A stretch of 36,942 nt of DNA from positions 1-36,942 of the IMG/VR virus record IMGVR_UViG_3300048588_000283; one strand, given 5' to 3'. Origin of the DNA: a virus. Position numbers and translations under genes: made by a program. This document shows, piece by piece, positions 9,050 to 17,151 of the stretch (position 1 is the stretch's first letter; each line of letters begins with the position of its first letter). The notes below the pieces were generated by a model. That model searched no databases, had not been told where the DNA came from, and saw only the letters and a list, made by a program, of their open reading frames with translations.

Positions 9050-9204
9050 CCGGCTTCTGCTGGACGTGCGGCGGCCTCGCCGTCACCACACGCGACGGCC
9101 GCGACTACTGCGACCACTGCACCCCGACCGACCCCACCGAGGCCCACCTGAAGGCCTACATCGCGCAGCGCCTGCGCGCGAACATGAACGGAGACCGTGC
9201 ATGA
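9046..9204 (+). CDS. 52-aa zinc-ribbon mini-protein
   Basis: Two Cys pairs, CWTC near residue 5 and CDHC near residue 22, form a clear treble-clef or ribbon type zinc site, followed by a short helix (AHLKAYIAQRL). Overlaps its neighbours by 4 bases at both ends. Small zinc ribbons are often nucleic-acid or protein adaptors. No family name can be given. Confidence 0.7.
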   Translation: MTGFCWTCGGLAVTTRDGRDYCDHCTPTDPTEAHLKAYIAQRLRANMNGDRA

Positions 9205-10340
9205 CCGCCACCTTCGAACGAATCAAGACCGACTGGATCACCCCGCACGACCGCAACGTCCGCCGCGACCTCGGCGACCTCGACGAGCTCGCAGCCAGCA
9301 TCAAGGCCCAGGGCCTCCTGCAGCCCCTCGTCGTCGCACCACGCACGGACAGCGACAGCGTCACCCGGGAGTACGTCATCGTCGCCGGCCACCGCCGCCA
9401 CGCCGCCGCCACCAAGGCCGGCCTGGAGACAGTCCAGTGCATCGTCCGCGATGACCTCGACACCCCCGCCAAGGTCATCGAGGCGATGCTGGTCGAGAAC
9501 CTGCAGCGCACCGACCTGACCGTCATGGAGGAGGCCGACGCCTACGCCCAGCTCGAGCTCCTCGGCGTCAAGGAAGCCGCCATCGTCAAGACCACCGGCC
9601 GGTCCCGCAAGACCGTCCACGAGCGCCTCCTCCTGGCGTCGCTGCCCACGGAGCGCCGCCAGCAGTACGAGACCGGCAAGCTCAGCCTGGAAGGTGCCGT
9701 CAAGTGCGCGAAGCTGCGCCAGCAGTACGCCGACGACACCGAGATCCTCGAGCTCATCGACAAGGCCGGCACCTACTCCTTCGCTCAGAGCGGCTACGGC
9801 ATCGACTACACGATCAGCCGCATCCTCGAAGACCGCAACCGGCCCCAGGAGCCCGAGGACGACGACGAGGACACCATCGACTACGCCGGCAAGCGCGCCG
9901 AACGCGAAGCCGAATGGGAGAAGCGCCAAGCAGAGCAGAAGGCTGAGCAAGAGCGCCTCGCTGAGATCTGGCGGTCCCACAACGAGTGGATCGGCGGCCT
10001 CATCGTCCGCGCACGCAGCGACGAGCACACCATCTACGCCCTGGCCCGCTCCGTGTTCGCCGAGCTCGTCGAGTCCCAGAACGTCAACGAGGACGTCCTA
10101 CCCGTCATCGCAGTCGAGGCCAACGACGAAGGCGACCCCGTCGACTGGACCGACAGCGACGCACTGCTCTACCTGCTGCTGAACGAGGCCCCCGTCGAGT
10201 TCGAACCCGCCGGCTGGGGCTCCCACCACTGGAACCTGCGCCGGCGCATCCAGTGGATGCAGTCACTCGGATACAGCCCCACCGCCGACGACCTCGCGAT
10301 CCTCCAGCCCGCGCAGGAGGACGACGATGAGGTGGCGTAG
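9201..10340 (+). CDS. ParB-like nuclease domain protein
   Basis: 379 aa. Residues about 5-130 match the ParB N-terminal fold: ITPHDRNVRRDL, DLDELAASIKAQGLLQPLVV, the AGHRRHAAA box and VENLQRTDLTVMEEADAY. A helix-turn-helix-like segment follows (AIVKTTGRSRKTVHERL). The rest is an acidic linker, a Glu/Gln/Lys-rich coiled coil (about 226-260) and a unique C-terminal domain. There is no ParA partner, so plasmid partition is unlikely. In phages such proteins are DNA-binding or nuclease-like factors in replication or recombination. It lies between recT and rusA. Confidence 0.88.
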   Translation: MTATFERIKTDWITPHDRNVRRDLGDLDELAASIKAQGLLQPLVVAPRTDSDSVTREYVIVAGHRRHAAATKAGLETVQCIVRDDLDTPAKVIEAMLVENLQRTDLTVMEEADAYAQLELLGVKEAAIVKTTGRSRKTVHERLLLASLPTERRQQYETGKLSLEGAVKCAKLRQQYADDTEILELIDKAGTYSFAQSGYGIDYTISRILEDRNRPQEPEDDDEDTIDYAGKRAEREAEWEKRQAEQKAEQERLAEIWRSHNEWIGGLIVRARSDEHTIYALARSVFAELVESQNVNEDVLPVIAVEANDEGDPVDWTDSDALLYLLLNEAPVEFEPAGWGSHHWNLRRRIQWMQSLGYSPTADDLAILQPAQEDDDEVA

Positions 10341-11413: not shown

Positions 11414-11970
11414 GCATCAGCAAGCGCCTGCGCTACGAGATCCTCAAGCGCGATGGCTTCAAGTGCCGGTACTGCGGCACCACGTCCCAGGACACGGAGC
11501 TCACGATCGACCACGTACTTCCGGTCGCTCTAGGAGGATCGGACGACCCGACGAACCTGGTCGTTGCCTGTGTCGACTGCAACCTCGGCAAGTCCTCCAG
11601 CCCCGCCGACGCCGAGCACGTCGCTCAGGTCGCCGCAGACGCCGCACGATGGGCCCGAGCCATCGAAGAAGCCGCGGACCAGATGCAGGCATCCCGCGCT
11701 ACCGAGTCCACATACGCAACGGCGTTCCTCGAGGTCTGGCCGAACTACTACAACCTGCCTGCTGACTGGGACGTGTCCATCATGAGGTTCCAGAGCGCCG
11801 GCCTTCCGCAGCAGGTCATGGTCGACGCCGCCCATGCCGCGATCGGCAACGCCCGCGTCGCGGGAGGCGCCGCCAAGTTCCGCTACTTCGCCGGCATCTG
11901 CTGGGCGCGCGTCCGCGAGCTCCAAGACCTCGCCGCGGCCATCATCGAAGAACAGGACGGACACCCATGA
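11410..11970 (+). CDS. HNH endonuclease with C-terminal helical extension
   Basis: 186 aa. Classic HNH domain in the first 65 residues: YEILKRDGFKCRYCG, then TIDHVLPVALGGSDDPTNLV and CVDCNLGKS, with two Cys pairs for zinc. The remaining 120 residues are helical and look like a phage replication or DnaD-associated region (FLEVWPNYYNLPADWD, then AKFRYFAGICW). That suggests the HNH part was joined to a replication gene, or that this is a nuclease acting with the replisome organiser encoded next, with which it overlaps by 4 bases. Confidence 0.9.
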   Translation: MSISKRLRYEILKRDGFKCRYCGTTSQDTELTIDHVLPVALGGSDDPTNLVVACVDCNLGKSSSPADAEHVAQVAADAARWARAIEEAADQMQASRATESTYATAFLEVWPNYYNLPADWDVSIMRFQSAGLPQQVMVDAAHAAIGNARVAGGAAKFRYFAGICWARVRELQDLAAAIIEEQDGHP

Positions 11971-12362
11971 GCGGCCTGAAGTGGGTACGGCTCGACACGT
12001 CGATCTGGTGCCACGACAAGGTCCTCGACCTCATGGAGAAGCGCGACGGCCACAAGGCATTCGGCCTCTACGTGTTCGGCCTTTCCTACTCCGGCCTGGT
12101 GCAGACCGACGGCCGCATCCCTGCCCGAGCCCTGCCGCTCCTGCAGGGCAACCGCCGACTGGCCGACATGCTCGTCGACCACGGACTGTGGCGCCACCTC
12201 GAGGCCGGCGACTACCAGGTCATCAACTACGCCGAACGGCAGCAGACGTCCGAGACGACCGACCGCATCGTGTCCGGCCGGCGCAAGGCCGCCTGCGCCC
12301 GGTGGATGAAGGAAGGCCGGCCCTGCTCGTGCGGCTTTCACCTCCGAGCAGTGGAGGCGTGA
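11967..12362 (+). CDS. DnaD-like / replisome-organiser-like protein
   Basis: 131 aa. The N-terminal pattern WVRLDTSIWCHDKVLDLMEK, then GLYVFGLSYSG, TDGRIPARAL and VDHGLW resembles the winged-helix N-terminus of phage replisome organisers as I recall it in actinophages. It ends in a basic segment with a C-x-C-x2-H motif. No helicase or primase is encoded in the genome, so the phage likely recruits host replication proteins. The repeat cluster immediately downstream is a candidate origin. Confidence 0.72.
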   Translation: MSGLKWVRLDTSIWCHDKVLDLMEKRDGHKAFGLYVFGLSYSGLVQTDGRIPARALPLLQGNRRLADMLVDHGLWRHLEAGDYQVINYAERQQTSETTDRIVSGRRKAACARWMKEGRPCSCGFHLRAVEA

Positions 12363-12471
12363 TGCATATGCAAACCGGATGCGAGATGCAGTGCACATGC
12401 ATATGCAACCTCCAATGGACGATGACGATGACGATGACGATGACTGCAGATGCATGCACTCCGTGCATGCA
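12362..12471. repeat. ATGCAT / GACGAT repeat cluster, candidate origin
   Basis: In a gene-free gap of about 170 bases after the replisome-organiser-like gene: a direct repeat atgcatatgcaa at 12362-12373 and 12397-12408; a tandem of gacgat repeated 4.5 times at 12418-12444; and a perfect hairpin tgcatgcac-tcc-gtgcatgca at 12451-12471. The stretch is visibly less GC-rich than its surroundings. Iteron-like repeats beside an initiator gene suggest a replication origin. A regulatory site for the next gene is possible. An open frame here would encode a run of Asp residues but does not look coding. Confidence 0.55.
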
Positions 12472-12531
12472 GTCTCGGGTCAATCAATCTCGCCTGTCAC
12501 CCTCCGTAACGCGCGCGAAGGGAAACCCACG

Positions 12532-13194
12532 ATGACCACACACCAGACCCTCTGCCTCGTCGACCACGACCCGCCCCGCCAAGCCACCCCAGGCCTCACC
12601 GTCTGCCACTCCTGCCGCACCCACACCCTCGACGCCACCGCCCAAATGCCCGCCCTCTGGCGCCACCTCGAGGACTACCTCGACAACCACACCGGCACCA
12701 GCAACGGCCCCATCGTCACCACCAGCCGCGACCCCGGCCTCAACCTCAACCAAGCCGTCGTCCGCACCCGCGCCAACATCCGCATCCACCTCGAATGCTG
12801 GACCCGCATCGGCATCGACGAAGGCCCCTGGCACACCCGCCCCACCAACCGCCTCGAAGGCATGGCCACCTGGATCGCCACCCGCATCGACTGGTACTGC
12901 TCACAGGACTGGTCCGACGAGTTCGTCACCCAAACCCTCGAGCTCCGCTCCGAAGGCCGCCGCCACCGCCAACCCAACAAAGCCGCCACCTTCACCGTCG
13001 GACCCTGCCCCGAACCCGACTGCCAAGGAACCCTCATCACCCGCCTCCGCCCCGCCGACTCCCTCCTGCCATCCGTCATCTGGTGCGACAAAGCACCCGA
13101 AGACCCCGAGACCGGAGAACAACTCCACGTCTGGCCCGCCGGCGACGGCTGGCACCAGCTCGGCCGCAAGATCCACAAGCGAGCCATCCAATGA
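12532..13194 (+). CDS. Hypothetical protein with zinc-ribbon motifs
   Basis: 220 aa. Start chosen at the ATG after the repeat cluster; the open frame extends upstream through the repeats. It has an N-terminal C-x2-C (VCHSCRTHTL) and a second Cys set near 160 (GPCPEPDCQGTLI...WCDKA), like a zinc-ribbon pair, with a helical middle. The pattern resembles actinophage proteins I recall near replication genes, with no function assigned. It may be a nucleic-acid-binding adaptor. RBS is only moderate. Confidence 0.78.
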   Translation: MTTHQTLCLVDHDPPRQATPGLTVCHSCRTHTLDATAQMPALWRHLEDYLDNHTGTSNGPIVTTSRDPGLNLNQAVVRTRANIRIHLECWTRIGIDEGPWHTRPTNRLEGMATWIATRIDWYCSQDWSDEFVTQTLELRSEGRRHRQPNKAATFTVGPCPEPDCQGTLITRLRPADSLLPSVIWCDKAPEDPETGEQLHVWPAGDGWHQLGRKIHKRAIQ

Positions 13195-13361
13195 CCAGCT
13201 GGATCACCATCGAGGAAGCAGCCGTACTGCTGGCCACGAGCACCGACAACGCCCGCAAGATCGCCAGCCGGAGGGGTTGGCGACGAGCCCGCATCGACAG
13301 ACGCATGCACTACGCCATGGACGATGTACTCGACACGCCGCGGAAGGGCTTGCTTACTTGA
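13191..13361 (+). CDS. Small HTH protein, end of early operon
   Basis: 56 aa. The sequence ITIEEAAVLLATSTDNARKI followed by a basic segment and DDVLDT resembles a truncated excisionase/HTH_17 domain. It overlaps the previous stop by 4 bases (ATGA). As the last early gene before the tRNA and the packaging genes, it could be a late-gene regulator. That role is only positional. Confidence 0.7.
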   Translation: MTSWITIEEAAVLLATSTDNARKIASRRGWRRARIDRRMHYAMDDVLDTPRKGLLT

Positions 13362-13423
13362 CAAGCCGTGTCACAGAATGATCCCTAGCGTCGGGTCCCG
13401 TATGGGAGCCCGGCGTTCGTCAT

Positions 13424-13501
13424 TGCCGGGTGGAGCAGCTAGGTAGCTCGCCAGACTCATGCTCTGGAGGTCGCGCGGTTCGAATCCCGCCCCGGCTACC
13501 A
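13424..13501 (+). tRNA. tRNA with CAT anticodon (Met or Ile2), irregular
   Basis: A 78-base cloverleaf with encoded CCA: acceptor tgccggg/cccggct, D-stem gagc/gctc, anticodon stem ccaga/tctgg around ctcatgc (anticodon CAT), T-loop ttcgaat. Two defects are visible. The first acceptor pair would be T-T, and the T-stem pairs fully only if one C is bulged. It may be an unusual but working tRNA-Met, an Ile2 tRNA (CAT read as AUA), or a decaying copy. It sits alone before the late genes. Confidence 0.85.
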
Positions 13502-13516
13502 ACCAGGGCAGGTGAC

Positions 13517-13777
13517 ATGAGACGCATCGGCGGCCACCGCTGGCGCAAGCTCGTCGAACGCGTCCTCGCCGAAGAAGGCAGCATCTGCCACCTCTGCGGC
13601 CTACCAGGCGCCGACAGCGCCGACCACCTCATCCCGGTCAAGTACCGGCCCGACCTCGAGTTCGACCGCGCCAACCTCCGAGCCGTCCACCACAAGAACG
13701 CCGGTCGCTGCAACCGCAAGCGCGGAGACCGGCCCCTGCCACAGCCCGTCACCCTGCGCACGTCGCAGCCTTGGTGA
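13517..13777 (+). CDS. Packaging-associated HNH endonuclease
   Basis: 86 aa. Compact HNH domain: [20 protein letters not shown], then [18 protein letters not shown], with the two Cys of the zinc site and the H-N-H core. Small HNH proteins directly upstream of terminase genes take part in cutting at cos or pac in HK97-like phages. This position makes a packaging role more likely than homing, unlike the other three HNH genes here. Confidence 0.88.
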
Positions 13778-13901
13778 CTCGACCCGCATGGGTGGGGGAC
13801 CACCCCTCCCCGGGGGGCCTGGGGGCGATTGTCCGGGGGCTCAGTCGCGTTTCTCTCCCCGAGCGTGGCTGGTCACGCTAAGCCGCTGGAAGGACTCCGT
13901 G
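13778..13901. other. GC-rich gap before terminase, candidate packaging site
   Basis: A 124-base gene-free stretch between the HNH and small-terminase genes. It contains G-runs and C-runs with a near-palindromic ccaccc/gggtgg element and ctccccggggggcc. In phages with this gene order the cos or pac site lies here. No overhang can be read from sequence alone, and a promoter for late genes is not evident. Confidence 0.4.
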
Positions 13902-14297
13902 ATGGAACGCGACTGCGACCGTTGCGGGGGCACCTACGTGGCGAAGCGGTCGACTTCGCGGTTCTGTTCGCCGCGGTGTCGGAAGCAGGCGTCGCGCCAT
14001 CCTGTGGAGCTGGTCGAGTCGTCTGGGTCGGTCGAGCAGCCGGAGTCGGCGTCGGTGTCCGATGCCACACGGACGGAGCTGCGGGCGGCGGGGTCGTTGG
14101 ATTCGGCTTTGGGTCAGGCTGCGCTTCGCCTCGCGTTGCTGGTCGACATGCAGGGCCCGATGTCGGGGTCGGCTGCGGCGTCGCTGGTGAAGGAGTGGCG
14201 GGTGACGCTGGCGGAGGCTGTGAAGCAGCAGGCGGCGCCGACATCGCTGGTGGACGAGCTGCGGAAGCGCCGTGAGCAGCGCCGTTCTGTCTCGTAG
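13902..14297 (+). CDS. Putative small terminase subunit with zinc ribbon
   Basis: 131 aa. N-terminal ribbon CDRCGGTYVAKRSTSRFC followed by CRKQ, then a variable acidic linker and a helical C-terminal half (SLDSALGQAALRLALLVDMQ, LVKEWRVTLAEAV) that could form the oligomerisation part. It directly precedes and overlaps the large terminase by 26 bases, the usual TerS place. Actinophage proteins of this layout are often annotated as small terminases. DNA recognition by the ribbon is plausible but not shown. Confidence 0.7.
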   Translation: MERDCDRCGGTYVAKRSTSRFCSPRCRKQASRHPVELVESSGSVEQPESASVSDATRTELRAAGSLDSALGQAALRLALLVDMQGPMSGSAAASLVKEWRVTLAEAVKQQAAPTSLVDELRKRREQRRSVS

Positions 14298-15762
14298 CGG
14301 GGCACTGCCGACGTACTTGTGGATTCCGGAGGGGGCCCGGTTCGACGCGGCTGATGAGGCCGCGGATCTGGCTCGAGCCCTGGGGGACCAGGTCGACGAG
14401 CCGGAGGAGGCTGCGCTTCGAGTGCTGCTGGCCGAGGACGCCAGGGGCCGGCGGATCGCGCTGGAGTCGGGCCTGTTCTGTGGCAGGCAGAACGTGAAGA
14501 CGTGGGCCGGTCAGCGGATGGTCATCTACCGCGGCTGGGTCCATGACCTCAAGCGGATCGTGTGGACCGCGCACCTGTACAAGACGACGCAGGACACGTT
14601 CTTCGAGCTGCTGAACCTGATCGAGGCGCATGCCTGGCTGGAGCAGCAGGTGCTGAAGGTGTCTCGCGGCAACGGTGAGGAAGGCATCCACCTGCGGAAC
14701 GGGTGCCAGATCGACTTCGTGGCCCGGTCGCAGAAGTCCGCTCGAGGGTGGGCGGCGGATGAGGTCGTAGGGGATGAGGGCCTGTACCTGACGCCGGCGA
14801 TGATCGGCGCAGTGTTCCCAACGCTGTCGAGCCGGCCGGATCCGCACTTCACGCACCTGTCGAGCCCCGGCCTGCCGTCGTCAGATGTGATCCGGGCGGT
14901 GCGGGACCGTGGCCGTGCCGGTGGTGATCCGTCCCTGTCGTACGGGGAGTGGACGAGTGAGCGTGGCCGCTGCGTGGATGTCGAGTGTCGGCACAAGCCC
15001 GGCACTGTCGGGTGCCAGCTCGACGACCTGGACAAGGTGAGGCAGGCGAACCCGGCGCACCCGCGGCGCATCAGCCTGGACTACATCCGCTCTGAGCGGC
15101 GGGCGATGCCCGTTGCGGAGTACATGCGCGAGCGGCTGGGATGGTGGGAAGACCCGCCGCGGGAAGACGAGTCGACGTCACCGTTCCCCGTGGAACAGTG
15201 GCACGGCCTGGCTGATCCCGGTTCGCGGATCGAGCCTGGTTCGCCGATCGTGTTCTCGGTCGACGTGTCCTGGGACCGTTCACGGGCGTGGGTCGCGGTC
15301 GCGGGGCTGAACCAGCACGGCGTCCCGCATGGGGAGGTCGCGCACACGAACTTCGGCACCGACTGGGTGCTGGACTGGCTGGTCAAGCGTGTTGCTGCTC
15401 GAGGGCCGATGAAGATCGGCCTGCAGGGCGGCAACTCGCCGGTGTCGAGCCTGATCGAGCCGCTGGAGAAAGCGTTCGGCGACCTGGTCGAGACCATGGC
15501 CGGACCGGACCTGACCAGGGCGCACGGCGCCCTGTTCGACGCGATCACGGCTGGCAGCGTCGCCCATATCGGGCAGGAGCAGGTCGATGACGGCATCACC
15601 CGCGGCGTCCCTAAGACCCTTGGTGACGGGTGGGTGCTCGACCGGCGGAACTCTCCCGTCGACGTCGCGGGCGCGGTCGCTGTGATCGAGGCCCTGTACC
15701 TGCTGCAGACCACTGAGCCGCCGGCCCCCAAGCGGGTGTCGGTCCCGAAACGACTTCGCTAG
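14272..15762 (+). CDS. terL: Large terminase subunit
   Basis: 496 aa from a GTG. Packaging ATPase: Walker A-like FCGRQNVKT at about 69-77, Walker B VVGDEG at about 165-170 with the adjacent acidic pair, and a motif HLSSPG near 195-200. RNase-H-fold nuclease: VFSVDVSW with D331 and a conserved YMRERLGWW segment before it. Length fits headful or cos TerL proteins. It pumps DNA into the prohead through the portal encoded next and cuts the concatemer. Adjacent HNH, TerS and portal agree. Confidence 0.95.
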   Translation: MSSAVLSRSGALPTYLWIPEGARFDAADEAADLARALGDQVDEPEEAALRVLLAEDARGRRIALESGLFCGRQNVKTWAGQRMVIYRGWVHDLKRIVWTAHLYKTTQDTFFELLNLIEAHAWLEQQVLKVSRGNGEEGIHLRNGCQIDFVARSQKSARGWAADEVVGDEGLYLTPAMIGAVFPTLSSRPDPHFTHLSSPGLPSSDVIRAVRDRGRAGGDPSLSYGEWTSERGRCVDVECRHKPGTVGCQLDDLDKVRQANPAHPRRISLDYIRSERRAMPVAEYMRERLGWWEDPPREDESTSPFPVEQWHGLADPGSRIEPGSPIVFSVDVSWDRSRAWVAVAGLNQHGVPHGEVAHTNFGTDWVLDWLVKRVAARGPMKIGLQGGNSPVSSLIEPLEKAFGDLVETMAGPDLTRAHGALFDAITAGSVAHIGQEQVDDGITRGVPKTLGDGWVLDRRNSPVDVAGAVAVIEALYLLQTTEPPAPKRVSVPKRLR

Positions 15763-15771
15763 GAGGCGAGC

Positions 15772-17151
15772 GTGACTGTCGACGCGTTCGCCGTGGACCG
15801 CACCAAGATGACTGACGGCGGTGTGGAGTCTCCTGGTTGGTGGGTGCAGCAGCTCGACCGGTCGATGCAGCGGAAGCGGCCCCTGCTGCAGCTGCTGCAG
15901 TCCTATGACGAGGGCAACGCCCCGCTGATGGACATCGCGCCCACGGTGCGGGAGGCGTATCTGGCGTTCCAGAAGCGTGCCCGGACGAACTTCGCCAGCC
16001 TGGTCGTGGACGCCATGATCGACCGCATCCAGGTCGCCGGTATCCGTACCGGGGCTGGCGCCGATGAGTACGGCGATCAGCTGGCGTGGGACTGGTGGCA
16101 GGCCAACGAGCTCGACGCGGACGCCAACGTCCTGCATCGGTCGGTGTTCGTGATGGGCGAGGCGTACGCCATCGCCGGCGACCTCGACCCGGACACTGGT
16201 GTGCCGGTCGTCACTGTCGAGGACCCGCGGCAGATGGCGGTCGCGACGGATCCGCTGCGGCGACGTCGGGTGCGGGCAGCACTGAAGCGGTTCACCGACG
16301 AGTGGACCGGGCTGGATCACGCGTACCTGTACCTGCGCGGCGAGCAGGGCGGCCCGGCGTTGGTGTTCCGGGCGGAGAACTCGAAGCGTCGCGGCTGGGA
16401 GTGGCTGGGGGAGCCTCAGCGGCTGCCGTTCTCGCAGGCTCCGGTCGTGTGGTTCCCGAACCAGCTGAGCATCGACGGCCGGAAGGTGTTCGGCGAGTTC
16501 CAGAAGCACATCGACGTGCTCGACCGGATCAACTCCACGGTCCTGCAGCGGATCGTGACGGGCGCGATGCAGGCGTTCCGGCAGCGGATCCTGAAGAACC
16601 TGCCCACGCACGACAAGGACGGCGTCGAGATCGACTACGAGGGCATGTTCGCCGCCGACCCTGCGGCGCTGTGGAACCTGCCTGAGGGCGTCGACGTATG
16701 GGAGTCTCAGGTCACTGACCTGACCCCGATGCTGATGGCCGCCCGGGACGACATCAAGGACCTGGCGGCCGTGACACGGACACCGCTGCCGTCGCTGATG
16801 CCCGATGGAGCGAACCAGTCCGCCGCGAACTCCGAACTCGTCGAGTCCGGGCTGATCTTCAAGGCGATCGACCGGATGACCGCGCTGTCGGAGCCGTGGG
16901 AGCAGCTGCAGCAGCTGCAGTTCCTGTGGGCCGGCGACGTGGAGCGGGCAGCCCGGCGGGACATGGAGATCCTGTGGATGCCGCCCAGCATCCCGTCGAT
17001 GGCTGAGCGGTTCGACGCCGCATCGAAGGCACAGGCCGCGGGCCTGCCAGACGCCTACATCCGGCGGAACGTCCTCGGCATGACGCCGCAGGAGATCGCC
17101 CGGTACGCGGCTGAGCCCGCGGCACAGACTCAGGAGCCGTCCGGCTCCTAG
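15772..17151 (+). CDS. Portal protein (SPP1 gp6-like family)
   Basis: 459 aa from a GTG with strong RBS (aggaggcgag). The long N-terminal helix region with YDEGNAPL, the NFASLVVDAMIDRIQVAGIR segment, the YLYLRG strand region and the later PLPSLMPDGANQSA...S pattern match the SPP1 gp6-like portal family of actinophages. The portal dodecamer forms the DNA channel and the head-tail vertex. A Gln/Leu-rich wing region (WEQLQQLQFLWAGD) and a disordered C-terminus are typical. Confidence 0.93.
   Translation: MTVDAFAVDRTKMTDGGVESPGWWVQQLDRSMQRKRPLLQLLQSYDEGNAPLMDIAPTVREAYLAFQKRARTNFASLVVDAMIDRIQVAGIRTGAGADEYGDQLAWDWWQANELDADANVLHRSVFVMGEAYAIAGDLDPDTGVPVVTVEDPRQMAVATDPLRRRRVRAALKRFTDEWTGLDHAYLYLRGEQGGPALVFRAENSKRRGWEWLGEPQRLPFSQAPVVWFPNQLSIDGRKVFGEFQKHIDVLDRINSTVLQRIVTGAMQAFRQRILKNLPTHDKDGVEIDYEGMFAADPAALWNLPEGVDVWESQVTDLTPMLMAARDDIKDLAAVTRTPLPSLMPDGANQSAANSELVESGLIFKAIDRMTALSEPWEQLQQLQFLWAGDVERAARRDMEILWMPPSIPSMAERFDAASKAQAAGLPDAYIRRNVLGMTPQEIARYAAEPAAQTQEPSGS

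Follow-up and report, generated by a model that had tools for sequence, protein, structure and literature searches.

Organization of the window and of the gap downstream of rep

The stretch of DNA analyzed here, referred to as the window, constitutes a complete virus record of IMG/VR and is 36,942 bases long. It carries genes for an integrase and a metallo-protease, an early region encoding RecT-like, ParB-like, RusA-like, and HNH proteins, and, thereafter, genes for the terminase, the portal, and the major head protein. The co-occurrence of the integrase, early, and terminase/portal/major head genes denotes a temperate phage or prophage, and the source of the window is a temperate actinobacterial phage or prophage. 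A tRNA-Met (CAT) gene is located at positions 13423 to 13500, after the early genes and before those for packaging. The features of relevance are as follows.

9192 to 10340: gene for a ParB-like protein, in the early region of this integrase-encoding phage, approximately 2 kb upstream of the repeat cluster
11967 to 12362, + strand: gene for Rep, the predicted short-form replication initiator (131 amino acids [aa]), with a winged-helix domain (residues ~9 to 93) and a C-terminal helix
12249 to 12311, + strand: codons of Rep residues 95 to 115, the C-terminal helix (..RRKAACARWMK..), where covarying columns cluster in two locus sets
12362 to 12417, + strand: iteron array, with two copies of ATGCATATGCAA (GCATATGC core), ATGC sites at 12379 and 12386, and GCACATGC at 12393 to 12400
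12418 to 12444, + strand: simple tandem (GACGAT)4.5, corresponding to the 4- to 6-bp tandems of relatives, (ACGN)n among them
12445 to 12471, + strand: TGCAG and the inverted repeat TGCATGCAC-TCC-GTGCATGCA, outside the consensus of relatives
12495 to 12518, + strand: conserved tail block ..GTAACGCGCGCGA, the best match of a tail model from whose construction the window was excluded
12532 to 13194, + strand: downstream gene whose function is not known (220 aa; phrog_1467/908) and whose start bounds the noncoding gap

The noncoding gap between the initiator gene and the downstream gene comprises 169 bp (12363 to 12531). The first repeat begins within the TGATG which ends the initiator gene, the Rep stop codon (12360 to 12362) thereby preceding the array. 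An initial annotation of this DNA had described a direct repeat, a GACGAT tandem, and a perfect hairpin, lying together in a less GC-rich cluster at 12362 to 12471, and each of these elements was recovered. The exact ATGCATATGCAA occurs at 12362 to 12373 and 12397 to 12408 and nowhere else in the window, the GACGAT run covers 27 bp (4.5 units), and TGCATGCAC and GTGCATGCA constitute a perfect 9-bp inverted repeat (12451 to 12459 and 12463 to 12471) with a 3-nt loop, while GC content is 51% in the cluster versus 69% in the window. The end of the cluster requires correction, as the feature continues to approximately position 12519, taking in TAACGCGCGCGA.

The tetranucleotide TGCA is present 11 times in the 110 bp of the cluster versus four times in the best 110-bp stretch elsewhere in the window; none of 5,000 first-order Markov sequences reached 11 copies, and a 12-bp repeat arises in 0.3% of such sequences. 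Chance is therefore a poor explanation for the cluster, of which the window has no second example. GC content is 45 to 65% through most of the gap, the single-strand structure of the gap as a whole is not unusual (z = -1.12), and the segment from 12445 to 12471 may contain extra half-iterons. The cumulative GC skew, proposed as a check in the initial annotation, is uninformative, as there is no global minimum at the gap, and the minimum near 13.8 kb is a local one.

Two reading frames cross the gap, one corresponding to a 57-aa open reading frame (12362 to 12535) and the other to an Asp-rich N-terminal extension of the gene at 12532 (open from 12379), and the TGATG and ATGA overlaps at the two ends resemble translational coupling. 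However, GC3 is 0.65 for the 57-aa frame and 0.59 for the Asp-rich frame, compared to 0.84 to 0.91 in seven other genes of the window, the 57-aa product has no match in PHROG, Pfam, or NCBIfam, and iterons and tandems occupy the same place in relatives. Furthermore, residue 14 of the 12532 product aligns to position 15 of its family profile, so that a start at 12532 fits the family and an extension is not needed. We therefore regard a coding function of the gap as very improbable; translation of an Asp-rich N terminus, the result that the initial annotation had held would speak against an origin, was not borne out, the frame being open but its codon bias wrong.

The product of the gene at 12532 to 13194, directly after the candidate origin, is Cys rich and is weakly matched by phrog_1467 and phrog_908 as well as by a family of DNA-binding proteins. 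The two contigs nearest to the window by this gene (L002 and L003) both lack the gap itself. The second of these, a metagenome contig, is 99.97% identical to window positions 12926 to 16191, and its positions 1 to 1416 harbor an IS-like transposase which reaches right to the break in the 12532 gene, a junction explained either by an insertion event in a close relative or by chimerism of the assembly.

Rep is a short form of a replication initiator family

Rep matches the 312-aa profile phrog_3926 (E = 1.5e-23) across positions 3 to 117, where the short form stops, the C-terminal half of the profile being absent. Both phrog_3926 and phrog_2447 are annotated as "replication initiation protein," an annotation that Rep shares through the first ~117 positions only. 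No model of Pfam or NCBIfam matched Rep, and single-protein scans with Rep found nothing. In the AlphaFold2 model (pLDDT 87.5), a winged-helix region is predicted with confidence, and residues 95 to 115 form a long helix. A Foldseek comparison against the PDB returned no match at an E value of ≤0.001, and a profile search of PDB sequences returned a single match (E = 0.73) that was taken as chance, although solved relatives may have escaped these searches. The PDB matches of Rep are weak (Z score of at most 7.7) and of a type frequent among winged helices, ORC/Cdc6 and RepA_N domains being examples.

Equally short relatives of Rep are encoded by the named phages Dori, Sonali, Liefie, Tweety, REQ2, B3, and Avani. 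The Reps nearest to that of the window are those of loci L164 (49% identity) and L165 (46 to 47%), whose iterons differ from those of the window. The nearest Reps of the window have in common a Cys/His pattern, C-x-R-(W)..G-x-x-C-x-C, which could bind zinc (alignment A6); in the window, it is encoded at 12294 to 12350 (residues 110 to 128), where the C-terminal helix ends and in the residues that follow.

A conserved module downstream of short rep genes

The module was characterized from Rep-anchored loci, a scan with the DNA pattern GAACTACTCACCTT having given a long list of contigs. Downstream of most short-Rep stop codons, a common order is apparent, consisting of short repeats, a 4- to 6-bp tandem (mostly ACGN), a lower-GC stretch, and (G)TAACGCGCGC. 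This layout is common to dozens of related phages, while the iteron letters differ between phages; the conservation anticipated by the initial annotation thus holds for the architecture and not for the iteron letters. When the 240 bp located 3′ of the short Rep were compared with same-locus controls across 57 nonredundant loci, tandem runs of at least 8 were found in 60% versus 8%, the repeated-7-mer score was 25 versus 6 (P = 6e-19), and ACGCGC-type motifs were found in 54% versus 10%, figures which are lowered by some loci in which a small gene, nuclease-like or otherwise, precedes the repeats and follows Rep. Small nuclease-like genes, judged as such from their sequence, separate Rep from the iterons in L163, L180, L184, L200, L201, L192, and L241, as if nuclease genes had been inserted at the origin in those relatives.

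On average across 61 loci, GC content dips to 43 to 46% in the 40 bp which follow the tandem. DnaA boxes are common, although not universal, in iteron origins, and a perfect box (TTATCCACA) was present within 600 bp 3′ of Rep at 14 of 88 loci versus 2 of 195 controls (P = 2e-6). The window has no DnaA box within one mismatch.

In 40 long-form Reps from genomes and phages, repeats and 5-bp tandems are located in the gene just after the winged helix (P = 7e-17). Loci L246, L248, L221, and L036, among others, exhibit (CCCGA)n or similar 5-bp tandems in frame at this position. Judging by this shared arrangement, the in-gene origin of the phage lambda O kind and the gap origin appear to be variants of a single layout.

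The window conforms to the module in that a short winged-helix Rep is encoded directly upstream, several short-repeat copies lie beside the initiator gene as in an iteron origin, and the iterons, the tandem, and the (G)TAACGCGCGC block follow in the same order and on the same strand. The tail model, when applied to both strands of the whole window, gave E values of 0.032 for the tail block on the + strand and 13 for the next match. The window departs from the module in the period of its tandem (6 rather than 4), its weak tail match, an unrecognizable midtail, and a hairpin which is peculiar to it.

Iteron sequence covaries with the C-terminal helix of Rep

Across 50 loci, iteron similarity rises with Rep identity (rho = 0.37; 0 of 2,000 permutations), whereas flanking DNA upstream of rep and further downstream does not (rho = 0.01 and -0.04, respectively). 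In a per-column analysis from which overall relatedness had been regressed out, residues 101 to 113 stood out. Covariation was again concentrated in the helix in a second locus set (n = 26), which was drawn from the same families by different queries, near-copies of loci in the first set being excluded (Mann-Whitney U test, P = 4e-5 and 3e-4 for the two sets; combined P = 4e-7). Furthermore, nearest neighbors defined by the helix residues predict the iterons better than neighbors defined by the rest of Rep. By these comparisons of related loci, it is helix residues ~100 to 114, and not the rest of Rep, that the iteron sequence tracks, and repeats which change in step with the helix suggest how Rep finds its origin.

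As the helix codons are situated no more than ~110 bp from the first repeat, helix and iterons might covary only through adjacency and joint exchange. Given the rest of Rep, however, the partial rho of the helix is 0.59 for the iterons but falls to 0.10 for the 60 bp that follow the tandem, a difference which argues against simple linkage, and the residues which follow the helix covary less despite being closer to the repeats. In a tree constructed from residues 1 to 95, four supported independent pairs all agree, the two traits switching together on four of four occasions on supported branches (a number of pairs for which a sign test cannot reach 0.05), and the best tree has seven changes in both traits; the loci are related, and the tree and the permutations allow for this kinship in part. 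Such a linkage artefact is, in our estimation, unlikely and, if right, would undo the claim of recognition but not that of an origin.

The covariation is most readily seen at residues 108 and 109. Where these are AA, ATGC iterons (at least three matches) are present at 44 of 44 loci (43 of 43 without the window), compared to 0 of 13 loci with Asn109 (Fisher's exact test, P = 5e-13) and 0 of 6 with GG, GA loci being mixed; since the data had been inspected before classes and motif patterns were defined, such P values are descriptive. Of the named phages, Tweety and Liefie fall into the AA class and Dori into the Asn class. The sequence GCATATGC occurs 43 times in AA loci and is absent from the octamers listed for 32 other loci. 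AA-class iterons are usually ~11 bp apart, equivalent to one helical turn, whereas the ATGC sites of the window are spaced by ~14, 7, and 14 bp.

The window possesses AA at residues 108 and 109, 13 ATGC/GCAT matches, and GCATATGC, although the remainder of its Rep places it among mixed relatives, most of them non-AA. Across all loci, greater helix identity is not accompanied by greater similarity to the iterons of the window (rho = 0.05), and the helix-iteron match of the window rests on the residue pair at 108 and 109. On balance, we lean toward a widespread and previously undescribed actinobacteriophage module in which residues ~108 and 109 of the C-terminal helix, rather than the winged helix, would set the iteron (AA, ATGC cores; Asn, GATC/GACTCC types; Gly-Ala, TGGCAAA in some; Gly-Gly, AAGCA type), with repeated natural swaps.

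Proposed function of the gap as a replication origin

The region from 12362 to 12519 very probably serves a temperate actinobacterial phage as its origin of lytic replication. The proposal of the initial annotation that an origin lies beside the replisome-organizer gene is supported by the architecture of relatives, the tail model which selects the same gap and strand, the enrichment of DnaA boxes in relatives, and the iterons which track the helix. At the level of sequence, the architecture, its conservation across relatives, the noncoding character of the gap, and the iteron-helix matching are established.

Winged-helix proteins are often regulators, and the repeats overlap the rep stop codon, such that they might instead serve transcription of the early operon, as operators or as a signal, while Rep regulates its own gene. 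However, no sigma-70-like promoter (the only promoter type covered) or terminator was detected between 12000 and 12800, the long forms have the same layout inside the gene, the Rep families are annotated as replication initiators, and DnaA boxes are enriched downstream in relatives; a regulatory role in place of an origin thus appears very improbable. Since parS sites can be repeat arrays, and the gene for the ParB-like protein is located upstream, a centromere-like site for this protein may also be envisaged. The iterons, however, track the helix of the adjacent Rep, and stable plasmid partition is not expected of a phage with an integrase gene, making a parS function extremely improbable.

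With regard to the lytic origin, we infer that Rep binding, DNA opening, helicase recruitment, and the start of replication take place at the gap. Rep would be produced early after induction, from a gene just upstream of the array, and would bind the ATGC/GCATATGC iterons, the C-terminal helix most likely reading the sites and representing the main specificity determinant. Once occupied, the array may strain the adjacent tandem and AT-richer stretch, or aid their opening, and would recruit a helicase. As none of the window genes examined was found to encode a phage helicase, this enzyme is probably that of the host.

Comparison with known initiator-origin systems

The O protein of phage lambda has an N-terminal winged helix and an origin within its gene, in which iterons lie beside an AT-rich stretch. 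The window resembles this system in its winged-helix initiator and in the position of the origin at the initiator gene, and its long-form relatives have in-gene iterons. In contrast to lambda O, the repeats of the window follow the stop codon rather than lying within the initiator frame, Rep corresponds to the N-terminal part only (131 aa) without the C-terminal domain that recruits the helicase loader, and specificity seems to reside in the helix after the winged helix, the iterons being short ATGC-core sites.

Replisome organizers of Firmicutes phages, such as G38P of SPP1, which acts at oriL, are small origin-binding proteins with repeats beside or inside their own gene. The window has a candidate for such a protein, acting on repeats at its own gene; the hosts differ, however, and the likeness is one of layout and not of sequence comparison. 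We know of no tandem and TAACGCGCGC tail in SPP1-type origins.

In cluster A mycobacteriophages, the subject of a study of prophage maintenance, RepA-type origins are reported to have no repeated motifs near repA (PMC7157519). That system likewise pairs an actinophage initiator, containing a helix-turn-helix, with a linked origin, but it concerns extrachromosomal prophages and another initiator, whereas the phage of the window is temperate and integrating. The RepA_N plasmid initiators (PDB 4pt7 and 5kbj) share the winged helix with Rep (VIA-align Z of ~5.7 to 6.0 over 82 residues). Identity to them is, however, 8%, Rep has no Pfam match, and similar Z scores are obtained with many other winged helices. 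A VIA-align Z of ~6 is common among unrelated winged helices.

Significance

To our knowledge, the origins of most temperate actinobacteriophages have not been mapped. Iteron origins are of a known kind, while the short-Rep module is apparently without an earlier description in open-access papers, in which none was found. Papers on Gordonia and Mycolata phages noted repeats, the origin not being identifiable (PMC4524720, PMC4972346). The module described here would provide many sequenced phages with a recognizable origin and a defined initiator, together with a residue-level hypothesis of DNA recognition that is testable with natural proteins. It could be of use in replicon construction for mycobacterial and related hosts and in explaining which phages can share or exclude replication systems.
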